From: Chitinophagales bacterium | GTDB taxonomy: Bacteria; Bacteroidota; Bacteroidia; Chitinophagales; JADIYW01 | Length of the DNA stretch: 64,000 nt | Assembly: GCA_019694955.1 (NCBI GenBank) | Contig: JAIBAX010000004.1 | Coordinates: forward strand, 1-64,000 | Reading direction: 5' to 3' | In this document: one piece after another, positions 31,665 through 64,000 of the stretch | How the letters are laid out: each line of letters starts with the position of its first letter | Position numbering within the stretch: position 1 is the first letter of the stretch | Program-made: the position numbers and the translations under genes | The notes under the pieces: generated by a model | Seen by the model: the letters and a program-made list of their open reading frames with translations, nothing else | Told to the model about the DNA's origin: nothing | The model's database searches: none

Positions 31665-32054
31665 ATGTTGCAGAAAGTAAGAATTGATAAATGGCTGTGG
31701 GCTGTGCGGGTGTTTAAAACTAGAACATTGGCAGCAGATGCCTGTAAAGGTGGAAAAATTAAGATTAGTGGCAATAGCATAAAGGCTTCATATATGCTGA
31801 GCATAGGTGAAATTGTCGATATTAAAAAGGAAGGAATAAAGCTGTCTTACAAAGTAGTGGAGTTAATTGAAAAACGTGTAGGTGCTGAGTTGGCAGTAAA
31901 ATGTTACGAAGATTTGACGCCACCAGAAGTAAAAGACCCAAAATTAATACCCTTTTTTCATGCAACTGCGGAAATTAGAGATCGCGGTACGGGAAGGCCA
32001 ACGAAAAAAGAACGACGCGAGATCGACAGGTTTAAAGATGATATAGAATTATAA
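31665..32054 (+). CDS. hslR: RNA-binding S4-domain protein, Hsp15 family
   Basis: 129 aa. The S4 domain is clear: VRIDKWLWAVRVFKTRTLAA, CKGGKIKISGNSIKASYML and GEIVDIKKEGIKLSYKVVEL. The C-terminal tail RGTGRPTKKERREIDRF is the typical basic Hsp15 end. Hsp15 binds free 50S subunits carrying nascent chains and helps recycle stalled ribosomes after heat shock. Three bases separate it from the downstream lipoprotein. Confidence 0.88.
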   Translation: MLQKVRIDKWLWAVRVFKTRTLAADACKGGKIKISGNSIKASYMLSIGEIVDIKKEGIKLSYKVVELIEKRVGAELAVKCYEDLTPPEVKDPKLIPFFHATAEIRDRGTGRPTKKERREIDRFKDDIEL

Positions 32055-32057
32055 AAG

Positions 32058-32480
32058 ATGAAGATTTTCAAGCATATAAGAAATTTTATTGGCAAGGTAT
32101 TGGTTACCATTGTTCTATTGCAAGGGTGCAAATCAACTCAAAATCATCAGAGTATGTATACATGTTTTACCCCTCAAAACTTTAACAAAGTTCGTGATAA
32201 TGTGCAGCATTATACACTTATTTCCAGTTCCGGAACATATTATTTGGAATATCCGGAAGACACCGCTGTTATTTATGATGGTATAAAAAGACCGTCTAAT
32301 TATCCCGAAAATGTTTATAAAGTGTATATGCTCAGCGATGGAAAAGAGCATGTAATTTTTAAAAGCAGCTCGCATACTTTTTCCTTTTCCATGGAAGGGT
32401 TGGATGAAACTTCTTTAAATGAAACAGATAAGGCATTGGCAAACGAAATCTTTTGCCACATTTTACATTTAAGGGATTAG
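32058..32480 (+). CDS. Lipoprotein of unknown function
   Basis: 140 aa. Signal peptide with lipobox VLLQGC (Cys24), followed by a compact mature domain (YTLISSSGTYYLEYPEDTAVIYDGIKR ...). It is probably in one operon with Hsp15 (3-base gap). No family recognised. The last codons and stop lie inside a dispersed repeat (32471-32562), so the C-terminus HLRD may have been remodelled by the repeat. Confidence 0.6.
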   Translation: MKIFKHIRNFIGKVLVTIVLLQGCKSTQNHQSMYTCFTPQNFNKVRDNVQHYTLISSSGTYYLEYPEDTAVIYDGIKRPSNYPENVYKVYMLSDGKEHVIFKSSSHTFSFSMEGLDETSLNETDKALANEIFCHILHLRD

Positions 32481-32562
32481 TTAGTGTGCTAGGGATTGGA
32501 GGAGCAACCGTGTGCGACGGAAAGCCCGCCTGTTTTGCCGAATGAGGCAAACAGGAGCACCC
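32471..32562 (+). repeat. Stop-codon-overlapping dispersed repeat, copy 1
   Basis: Begins AAGGGATTAG, where the TAG is the stop of the lipoprotein. Then come TAGGGATTGGAGGAGC and AACCGTGTGCGACGGAAAGC, and a hairpin CCTGTTTTGCC / GGCAAACAGG (32529-32555). A second copy in the opposite orientation lies at 61198-61262, also over a stop codon. The shared core is over 30 bases with two or three changes; the hairpin part differs in sequence but is kept as a stem. Confidence 0.75.
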
Positions 32563-32631
32563 AAATCAGTAACTTTTTATCAGATAAAATAAAATTAAAA
32601 ACAATTTTTATTACTGCATGAAAAAAAACCT

Positions 32632-32639
32632 TAGTTTTG
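32632..32639 (+). promoter_or_regulatory. -7 promoter element of the sulfite reductase leader
   Basis: TAGTTTTG, an exact TAnnTTTG, ends only 5 bases before the ATG of the poly-Cys leader ORF at 32645. With the usual spacing the transcript would begin at about 32643-32645, making the leader peptide (nearly) leaderless. No clear -33 element. Confidence 0.5.
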
Positions 32640-32644
32640 AAAAT

Positions 32645-32704
32645 ATGTTAAATAAAACAAAGATTTCCTGTTGCTGCTGTTGTTGTACGATTTGGTGCGG
32701 ATAG
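32645..32704 (+). CDS. Poly-cysteine leader peptide of the sulfite reductase attenuator
   Basis: 19 codons: MLNKTKISCCCCCCTIWCG, stop TAG at 32702-32704. Six consecutive Cys codons (32669-32686, mixed TGT and TGC) plus one more near the end make seven Cys in 19 residues, far beyond chance. Its position fits a classic leader peptide: just after a promoter-like TAGTTTTG, before a terminator hairpin, and before the gene that supplies sulfide for Cys synthesis. Low Cys-tRNA would stall the ribosome on the run. Poly-Cys leaders of this kind are known in mycobacteria; I am not aware of a described example in Bacteroidota. Confidence 0.85.
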   Translation: MLNKTKISCCCCCCTIWCG

Positions 32705-32764
32705 GCGATTTTTGACTATAAATAAACAATATAGCCTTTCCGGATAAAATAGGAAAGGCTTTTT
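32699..32764 (+). promoter_or_regulatory. Transcription attenuator: antiterminator/terminator switch
   Basis: The terminator stem AGCCTTTCC (32733-32741) / GGAAAGGCT (32752-32760) has a T run at 32760-32764 and lies 20 bases before the sulfite reductase start. Its left arm GCCTTTCC can pair instead with GGATAGGC (32699-32706), seven of eight positions, which overlaps the leader stop codon. A ribosome that reaches the stop covers GGATAGGC, so the terminator forms. A ribosome stalled on the Cys codons leaves it free and the antiterminator forms. This predicts Cys starvation raises sulfite reductase. Structure by eye; not tested. Confidence 0.75.
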
Positions 32765-32784
32765 AATTTTATAAAACTTAAACG

Positions 32785-34902
32785 ATGTATAAAACAGAAC
32801 ATTTAAGTACGGAAGTACAAAATGACATTCAAGAACTGGAAACAAAAATCGGTCAATTCATCAGCGGTGAAATGCCGGAAGATAAGTTTAAGCATTTCAG
32901 GCTAACCAGAGGTGTGTATGGACAGCGCCAGTTAGGGGTGCAAATGTTTCGTATAAAATTGCCGATGGGCAGAATTACGCCGAAACAATTGGTACGCATT
33001 GCTGAACTCTCTGAACAATTCGCTTCCTCCAATTTGCATTTAACTACCCGTCAGGACATACAACTTCACTATGTTAAGGTAATAGATACGCCACAATTGT
33101 GGGCAGGGTTGGAAGATGTAGGCGTTACCGGCAGAGAAGCTTGTGGCAATACGGTGAGAAATATTACCGCATCTGCTTCCGCAGGAATAGATAAGCATGA
33201 ACCATTCGATGTGTCGCCATATGTTTATGAAGCGTTTCGCTTTTTTCTGAGAAACCCTATCTGTCAGGACATGGGAAGAAAGATAAAAATGGCATTTTCC
33301 TCCTCAGAAGAAGATACTGCTTTTACCTATATCCATGATTTTGGTTTTATTCCTAGGATAAAAGACGGTAAGCGTGGGTTCAAAGTTGTTGTCGGTGGTG
33401 GTTTGGGTGCGCAGGCATTTCTGGCACAAACGGCGTATGAATTTCTGGAAGAAGATAAGGTAATACCCTTTATAGAAGCGGGATTGAGGGTTTTTGACCG
33501 CTACGGTGAACGGCAACGCAGGCACAAGGCAAGGATGAAGTACTTGATTAAAGACATCGGCATGGAGAAATTCATGGCATTAGTAGCGCAAGAAACGATT
33601 GCCAATAAAGTGAAGTCTTTCCCGATAGATATACATGCAGTGGAAGAAGCACAGCCGCCAGTGGTTATTGCGGTGCCAGAAGTGACTCTTTCTGACGAGA
33701 AAAAATATCAGGACTGGTTGAAAACCAACGTCTTTGAACAAAAACAATCCGGATATTACGGTATTTATCTAAAAGTAACCAATGGCGATATTAAGCCGGA
33801 TGAAGCACGTAAGCTGGCCACTTTGGTAGACAATTACGCATCGCAGGACATGCGCATTACCATGAATCAGGGCATGATGATAAAATATGTCCGTAAAGAA
33901 GCCTTGCCATATGTTTACACTGTTTTGGATGCATTAAACTTTGCACATCCCGGTTTTGGCACCATAGCGGATATTACCACCTGTCCGGGAACGGATACTT
34001 GCAATTTGGGCGTAACGAACAGCATGACTTTAGCCAAGATTTTGGAAGATGTTATCCAAAAAGAGTATTATCACTTGATTTTTGACAATGCTATTCACAT
34101 CAAAATGAGCGGCTGTATGAATTCCTGTGGACAGCATATGTCGGCGAGTATCGGTCTACACGGCAGCTCCATCAGAGTGGGTGACAAGGTTGCTCCTGCC
34201 ATGCAGATTGTTTTGGGCGGGGGCGTTAACAATCAAGGTGTTGGCACGGTTGGAGACAAAGTAGTAAAGCTGCCTACCAAAAAAATGCCGGATGCCTTAC
34301 GCACCCTTTTGAATGATTTTGAAGACAATCAGCTCGAAGGAGAATACTTCAACAATTATTATAAAAGATTGGGTAAAAACTATTTTTATAGCTTACTTAA
34401 GCCTATTGCAGATACCACAAAATTTGTAGACGACGATTATTTCGACTACGGTCATGACGAATATTTTACACCTGAGGTGGGCGTTGGTGAGTGTGCCGGG
34501 GTAATGTACGATATGATTGGTACAATTCTGAAAGATGCATTTATCAAACAAACAGAAGCACAAGAAGCAATGGACAACGGACGTTATCCGGAAGCGATTT
34601 ACTATGCTTATACCGGCAAAGTGATCGCCGCCAAAGCGTTGCTATTAAGTAAGGATGTGGAGTGCAATACACAAATAAAAATCATGCAGGACTTCGACAA
34701 GACTTTTGTGGAAACAGGAATTTTTGCAATAGAAGGCGGTTTTGAAAATTGTGTACTAAGCATCAACCAACACGAACCGGATAAGGATTTTGCCACTTCC
34801 TATGTGGCAGATTTTCATGGATTTTTGCAAAAAGTGATCGCATATAGAGAAAATGAATTGAAGGAAGACAAAGTGGTAGTGGAGAGTGCCTACAAGGCGT
34901 AG
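32785..34902 (+). CDS. Siroheme sulfite reductase (nitrite/sulfite reductase family)
   Basis: 705 aa. Ferredoxin-type hemoprotein domains form residues 1-600. The [4Fe-4S]-siroheme ligands are Cys400, Cys406, Cys444 and Cys448 (TTCPGTDTCNLG; SGCMNSCGQHMS). HLTTRQDIQLHYV and RITMNQGMMIKYV are the paired substrate-side motifs. A C-terminal helical part (about 605-690) resembles a HEPN-like extension. It reduces sulfite to sulfide with six electrons in assimilatory sulfate reduction, giving the sulfur for cysteine; nitrite is the alternative substrate, but the Cys leader upstream favours sulfite. Electron donor not visible. Confidence 0.9.
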   Translation: MYKTEHLSTEVQNDIQELETKIGQFISGEMPEDKFKHFRLTRGVYGQRQLGVQMFRIKLPMGRITPKQLVRIAELSEQFASSNLHLTTRQDIQLHYVKVIDTPQLWAGLEDVGVTGREACGNTVRNITASASAGIDKHEPFDVSPYVYEAFRFFLRNPICQDMGRKIKMAFSSSEEDTAFTYIHDFGFIPRIKDGKRGFKVVVGGGLGAQAFLAQTAYEFLEEDKVIPFIEAGLRVFDRYGERQRRHKARMKYLIKDIGMEKFMALVAQETIANKVKSFPIDIHAVEEAQPPVVIAVPEVTLSDEKKYQDWLKTNVFEQKQSGYYGIYLKVTNGDIKPDEARKLATLVDNYASQDMRITMNQGMMIKYVRKEALPYVYTVLDALNFAHPGFGTIADITTCPGTDTCNLGVTNSMTLAKILEDVIQKEYYHLIFDNAIHIKMSGCMNSCGQHMSASIGLHGSSIRVGDKVAPAMQIVLGGGVNNQGVGTVGDKVVKLPTKKMPDALRTLLNDFEDNQLEGEYFNNYYKRLGKNYFYSLLKPIADTTKFVDDDYFDYGHDEYFTPEVGVGECAGVMYDMIGTILKDAFIKQTEAQEAMDNGRYPEAIYYAYTGKVIAAKALLLSKDVECNTQIKIMQDFDKTFVETGIFAIEGGFENCVLSINQHEPDKDFATSYVADFHGFLQKVIAYRENELKEDKVVVESAYKA

Positions 34903-62926: not shown

Positions 62927-62936
62927 TAAAAATAAT

Positions 62937-63045
<109 letters not shown>

Positions 63046-63109
63046 GACATTAGTATATCATTTTGACAAATTGGATTCTAAATAACGTATAAAAAATATT
63101 GTAGTTTTT

Positions 63110-64000
<891 letters not shown>

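Follow-up and report, generated by a model that had tools for sequence, protein, structure and literature searches.

Leader-peptide transcription attenuators of the trp, his and ilv type are known from Proteobacteria and Actinobacteria. Polycysteine leaderless short ORFs of mycobacteria have reportedly been treated by Canestrari et al. in 2020. Candidate cys leaders of Actinobacteria, in which conserved terminators were absent, were first listed in PMC1262725, and the mycobacterial poly-Cys leaders were later described as cysteine-responsive and acting on downstream translation (PMC9031893, PMC13236596). In Rhodobacterales, the uORFC-8-2 motif upstream of cysS carries two tandem Cys codons and is predicted to work by ribosome-mediated transcription attenuation (PMC8632094). 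Within Bacteroidota, leader-peptide attenuation has been noted before amino-acid biosynthesis operons of Flavobacterium psychrophilum, in a paper whose main text names no cysteine leader (PMC9723704); in the parts of the F. psychrophilum and B. theta papers considered here, such attenuation is mentioned in general terms only. The mechanism is classical, and both Actinobacteria and Rhodobacterales have known Cys leaders; a Bacteroidota system appears to be undescribed in the open-access literature that we searched. For that literature, not the whole, this agrees with a preliminary description of the locus, which knew of no such attenuator, and a survey of attenuation across bacteria (Lopatovskaya et al. 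2010, as cited in PMC4833913) could contain one.

Here we describe the parts, conservation, pairing and spacing of a poly-Cys leader in a window of 64,000 nucleotides, the whole stretch of Chitinophagales DNA that was analysed. On the basis of sequence comparison and folding models, this locus is very probably a ribosome-mediated attenuator of transcription, sensing charged tRNA-Cys and governing the expression of sulfite reductase (SiR).

Architecture of the leader locus

The features of the locus, in order along the forward strand, are as follows.

32632-32639, + strand: predicted sigma-A -7 box TAGTTTTG, an exact match to the consensus TAnnTTTG
32645-32704, + strand: leader peptide ORF of 19 codons, MLNKTKISCCCCCCTIWCG and stop, from direct reading
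32658-32714, + strand: predicted 1:2 (anti-antiterminator) hairpin, from the minimum-energy fold
32669-32686, + strand: run of six Cys codons, predicted stall sites, from direct reading
32694-32707, + strand: predicted antiterminator arm (region 2), core CGGATAGGC at 32698-32706, overlapping the leader stop, from duplex and fold
32733-32764, + strand: intrinsic terminator with a 9-bp stem and T run, from direct reading and the fold with a ribosome at the stop codon
32785-34902, + strand: siroheme sulfite (nitrite/sulfite) reductase of 705 aa, the putative regulated gene, from PF01077 and PF03460

Direct reading bore out the elements listed in the preliminary description, namely a 19-codon ORF with six consecutive Cys codons and a seventh near its end, a perfect 9-base stem with a T run, and a stretch over the leader stop complementary at seven of eight positions to the left terminator arm, all within 150 bases of the SiR ATG at 32785. 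By eye and by script, the leader runs from the ATG at 32645-32647 to the TAG stop at 32702-32704, with the Cys codons of the run in the order TGT TGC TGC TGT TGT TGT and the seventh, TGC, at 32696-32698. It has no internal Met and forms a single unit. A longer in-frame reading starts at the ATG at 32618, which lies 5' of the predicted promoter box. Since the TAnnTTTG box is given at positions -12 to -5 in F. psychrophilum (PMC9723704), transcription in the window is predicted to start at ~32644, 1 nt 5' of the leader ATG, which would make the leader near-leaderless, like the mycobacterial poly-Cys ORFs. The same paper puts leaderless mRNAs in F. psychrophilum at only 5.5%. Among the leader loci that we collected, an exact box ending 0-12 nt 5' of an in-frame leader ATG precedes 19/54 first units and 0/16 second units.

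The terminator arms AGCCTTTCC (32733-32741) and GGAAAGGCT (32752-32760) pair at 9/9 positions around a loop of 10, followed by a modest T run (TTTTTAATTTT, T32760-32764) that ends 21 bases before the SiR ATG. A promoter/terminator consensus scan missed this element because its loop limit was 8. Upstream, GGATAGGC (32699-32706) is complementary to GCCTTTCC at 7/8 positions. The full predicted duplex is longer, joining 32694-32707 to 32733-32746 with an energy of -16.1 kcal/mol, compared with an average of -8.1 for shuffles (p=0.005), so that the left terminator arm doubles as the antiterminator partner. A known riboswitch or T-box was discarded as an explanation, the Rfam covariance search of the region having given no match at the gathering score.

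Two other features of the window were recorded. A single-copy intergenic stretch at 32495-32556 carries an inverted repeat (CCTGTTTTGCC/GGCAAACAGG) and has neither a T run nor an Rfam match; the part at 32502-32528 had been considered as a dispersed repeat and is single-copy in the genome. The 5S and 23S rRNA genes lie on the minus strand at the end of the window (62934-64000).

Predicted folding of the leader RNA

The 153-nt region folds more stably than its shuffles (z = -3.1). With a ribosome placed on Cys1 or Cys6 and the right terminator arm still unmade, the model gives the antiterminator (-15.1 and -12.1 kcal/mol, respectively), and with a ribosome at the stop codon it gives the terminator (-14.2 kcal/mol). 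RNA folding, one of the checks suggested in advance, is in line with a switch whose outcome depends on ribosome position. In the full-length RNA, the terminator is stabler than the antiterminator; the switch must therefore be kinetic, whereas all the folding used here is thermodynamic. The left half of the predicted 1:2 hairpin includes leader codons both ahead of the Cys run and inside it. The locus combines tandem codons for the end product, an intrinsic terminator before the gene and an antiterminator, with the covering by the ribosome modelled.

The downstream gene

The product of the gene at 32785-34902 contains NIR_SIR and NIR_SIR_ferr domains, with two matched stretches each; no other full-length homologue of siroheme reductases was found in the genome. 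Its orthologues lie next to cysH, cysD, cysN, uroporphyrinogen methyltransferase and siroheme synthase genes at one locus (L087) and next to ferredoxin, likely O-acetylhomoserine sulfhydrylase and siroheme synthase genes at another (L030), some of these gene names being our own reading of the sequence. Owing to this company of cysH, cysD, cysN and siroheme synthase genes, sulfite reductase, the name already given in the preliminary description, is the better one. A sequence-only search of solved structures returned ferredoxin nitrite reductases as the closest matches. A nitrite reductase role was rejected in view of the cysH-cysD-cysN and siroheme synthase clusters and of the Cys leader, which fits sulfite.

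Occurrence in relatives

SiR homologues were taken from 61 relatives, from 80 genome contigs with organism names and from 296 genomes of the class, together with further upstream regions. A leader was counted where, within 450 nt upstream of SiR, a mini-ORF had 3 or more Cys among 6 codons and a terminator followed it. Such a leader and terminator precede 60/155 distinct Bacteroidota SiR genes, compared with 3/322 control upstream regions from the same loci (Fisher p ~1e-29, although the sequences are related and not independent, so that pooled p-values overstate the certainty). All three control hits belong to the first genes of clusters leading to SiR. A looser Cys/Met rule raises the count to 73/155 SiR upstream regions. 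Leaders occur in families f1, f2, f13, f19 and f22 of the same order and, across the class, in families that include f31, f34, f37, f41, f45, f52, f56, f59, f60, f63, f64 and f65; named organisms with leaders are Fulvivirga, Flexithrix, Marinoscillum, Saprospiraceae, Pedobacter and Mucilaginibacter. Some leaders of Chitinophaga and Mucilaginibacter have few Cys, and a detectable leader with terminator is absent from ~60% of the SiR upstream regions, for example in Spirosoma, Larkinella and Thermoflavifilum. A TGY4 plus T-run pattern run over the 296 genomes proved too loose, matching mostly Ala/Gln-rich coding sequence, and was not used.

The leader sequences diverge among relatives, with the architecture kept. 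Outside the Cys cluster, the peptides are unconserved, their Cys count ranging from 3 to 10 with Met mixed in. The Cys-run ORFs that the preliminary description proposed to seek in relatives are present, before 60/155 SiR genes.

Pairing and spacing across units

For 70 leader-terminator units, the pairing of the left half of the terminator with the stretch behind the Cys cluster was compared with that in dinucleotide shuffles. Pairing between the left arm and this segment beats the shuffles (p<0.05) in 69% of the 70 units, with a median p of 0.017. The arms were located by searching for the best duplex, a procedure biased towards finding an arm, and for this reason 124 other terminators from the same loci were included as controls; here p<0.05 is reached in 10%, with a median p of 0.46. 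In folds, pairing between the left arm and the stretch upstream is seen in 97% of the units versus 58% of the control terminators.

The antiterminator arm is also phased to the Cys codons. Its onset falls at a median of 12 nt past the last Cys codon (IQR 10-15, sd 5.1, against an sd of 15.8 for shuffles), and 73% of the units versus 20% of the shuffles have it 8-16 nt past the cluster. The distance from the arm to the leader stop is loose (sd 14), and the terminator begins 19-59 nt past the leader stop, where a ribosome at the stop would not cover it. A ribosome with a codon in its A site covers ~10-12 nt beyond that codon. Given the 12-nt spacing, the arm would therefore be free during a stall anywhere in the run and covered once the ribosome has moved past. 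This positional rule, which goes beyond the preliminary description as do the promoter box, the second copy, the tandem units and the Met codons, is the strongest mechanistic evidence in our analysis.

In a close family set of n=7 sequences, the antiterminator is 100% paired, compared with 29-45% for slid versions, and the terminator is 100% paired with 5 double-change cells, a result matched by 1/500 shuffles. The stems that had been proposed to covary do so for the terminator; in the antiterminator helix of these seven sequences, the changes are one-sided (G-U) only, with no double-sided covariation. The 10-bp 1:2 helix, which joins leader codons to the arm, is paired in 87% of cells of the family set, a value equalled by 146/500 shuffles, and 1:2 pairing is significant in 19% of the units. 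As a general feature, the 1:2 hairpin is thus weakly supported. Overall, the relatives keep the alternative pairings despite sequence divergence, with the arm phased to the Cys codons, and the Cys-run leaders and alternative stems found in them favour the Cys attenuator with antiterminator and terminator first suggested for the window.

These data also weigh on the view that the Cys run encodes a small peptide with a function such as metal or thiol binding, and that the terminator does no more than close the short transcript of this ORF or the transcript of the genes upstream. Metal binding by a Cys-rich peptide is conceivable, and the same-strand upstream genes at 31665-32480 could need a terminator, but neither idea gives a role to the arm pairing and the 12-nt spacing. 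The promoter box separates the leader from the upstream genes, the peptides vary in the way described above, and the units recur specifically before sulfur genes. We consider a functional peptide highly improbable and retain attenuation as the preferred reading.

Second copy, tandem units and methionine codons

As a DNA pattern, Cys runs of at least 5 codons give 10 matches in the 4.1-Mb genome, and these come down to 7 places once overlapping matches are merged. A scan of 4-Cys sites of the same genome (L165-L204), which omitted 8 of them, found an intergenic mini-ORF with terminator and gene at two sites only, one before SiR and one before a cysteine synthase operon. The second unit (G000:C37, locus L191:1968-2114) has the leader MKNCVAILLNAAACCCCCCCPHMGEV, the arm GGTGAGG and the terminator AGCCTCGCC...GGTGAGGTTTTTTTTT, in the same layout as in the window. 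The genes behind it, named by our own reading, are a cysteine synthase, a JAMM-domain (Mec-like) gene and a ThiS-like (CysO-like) gene, so that by this reading the unit would front a CysM-Mec-CysO-like cysteine synthesis operon. In the same genome, a poly-Cys leader is absent before the cysC-cysD-cysN cluster, the second PAPS-reductase-domain gene and the siroheme synthase gene. One further site (L199, MSNDFSVTSLACCCCV), considered as a leader, was rejected because it lies antisense to the part of an SSB-like gene that encodes a Gln-rich tail.

That TGT/TGC repeats occur elsewhere in the genome, as at this antisense site, is what speaks for a constitutive terminator or transcript-end hairpin beside a chance Cys run. 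We find such a coincidence hardly credible, as both of the complete mini-ORFs among the sites scanned stand before sulfur genes, and as units recurring in many families contradict it; attenuation accounts for the locus far better.

The genes found behind poly-Cys leaders elsewhere include cysH and those for ferredoxin, siroheme synthase (TP_methylase) and homoserine dehydrogenase. Two complete leader-terminator units stand in tandem at 16/54 loci, those before sulfite reductase including L010, L011, L028, L033, L041, L046, L055, L116, L119, L120 and others. Met accounts for 19% of the non-Cys codons in or within three codons of the Cys cluster, compared with 4.8% elsewhere in the leaders (p ~1e-17), and for 66/408 in the true frame versus 7/420 and 16/420 in the frame controls. 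Mixed clusters are seen at L013, L014, L046, L116, L118, L269 and L270. Judging by codon content, the Cys/Met mix suggests sensing of both sulfur amino acids. Poly-Cys leaders were also seen before a peroxiredoxin-like gene (our reading) at L163:1249-1545 of genome G007, where they are in tandem, and at L114; no sulfite reductase match was found in G007.

Some leaders have no detected terminator. At L030:4002-4127, before ferredoxin, AGCAACAT lies just 3' of the Cys codons and can pair with them; the leader at L100:8062-8127 precedes siroheme synthase, and that at L100:1441-1560 precedes a small ORF that lacks annotation and is followed by a probable homoserine O-acetyltransferase gene (our reading). 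Such leaders may act at the translation level. The same could be proposed for the window locus, where the leader, like the poly-Cys leaders of mycobacteria, would govern how accessible the SiR start codon is, and the terminator-less cases, among them those before ferredoxin (L030-L032) and siroheme synthase (L100, L129), lend this some weight. However, an intrinsic terminator with a T run stands at a fixed distance both in the window locus and in the other units. The gap between terminator and gene varies widely, and neither hairpin includes the SiR start codon. For the window locus, translation-level control is very unlikely, and transcription attenuation is the reading that we carry forward.

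Proposed mechanism and implications

From the arrangement of these parts, we infer a course of events extending from transcription start, leader translation and stalling to termination, the cysteine response and a rise in sulfide. Transcription would begin ~1 nt before the leader ATG, and a ribosome would therefore load once the 5' end emerges. With ample Cys-tRNA, the ribosome would read past the Cys codons as far as the leader stop and cover the arm at 32694-32707; 32733-32741 would then pair with 32752-32760, and RNA polymerase would terminate ~20 bases short of the gene. If cysteine is scarce, the ribosome would stall on one of the six Cys codons, leaving the arm just past its front edge, free to pair with 32733-32746 before the right terminator arm is made. 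The antiterminator so formed would block the terminator, and sulfite reductase would be transcribed, supplying sulfide for cysteine synthesis.

We put forward more tentatively, at somewhat less than even chances, that sulfur assimilation in Bacteroidota is under widespread leaderless or near-leaderless poly-Cys attenuators, often mixed Cys/Met and many of them tandem, with a terminator-less class on other pathway genes. Tandem units, if truly such, would need two independent stalls and could give a steeper or a two-amino-acid (AND-like) response. The locus would be the first known cysteine attenuator in Bacteroidota and would offer an RNA-level account of sulfur control in this phylum. Since ribosome-mediated attenuation requires a ribosome close behind RNA polymerase, it would also be a direct assay of transcription-translation coupling in Bacteroidota. 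The tandem units and the Cys/Met mix would form a natural series of sensors in which unit number, codons and the 12-nt spacing are each testable, and the leader sequence could be used as a search signature for cysteine-responsive genes.

Comparison with known systems

With the trp, his and ilv attenuators, the locus shares a leader ORF that contains regulatory codons, an antiterminator and a terminator that exclude each other, and a biosynthetic gene downstream. It differs in its regulatory Cys codons (Cys plus Met in relatives), its occurrence in Bacteroidota, its predicted near-leaderless start and the frequent presence of two units, as well as in the 1:2 hairpin, which is not generally evident in the Bacteroidota units. 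The mycobacterial leaders likewise have contiguous Cys codons in a short ORF before cysteine-synthesis genes and a start codon at or near the RNA 5' end, as predicted here; the intrinsic terminator and the antiterminator set the present locus apart from them. The F. psychrophilum leaders, as far as the text considered describes them, share the phylum and the short peptides. With uORFC-8-2, the common points are predicted ribosome-mediated attenuation, Cys codons and a terminator. Unlike that motif, found exclusively before cysS in one order of Alphaproteobacteria, the window leader precedes a SiR gene, has six Cys codons and follows another layout.
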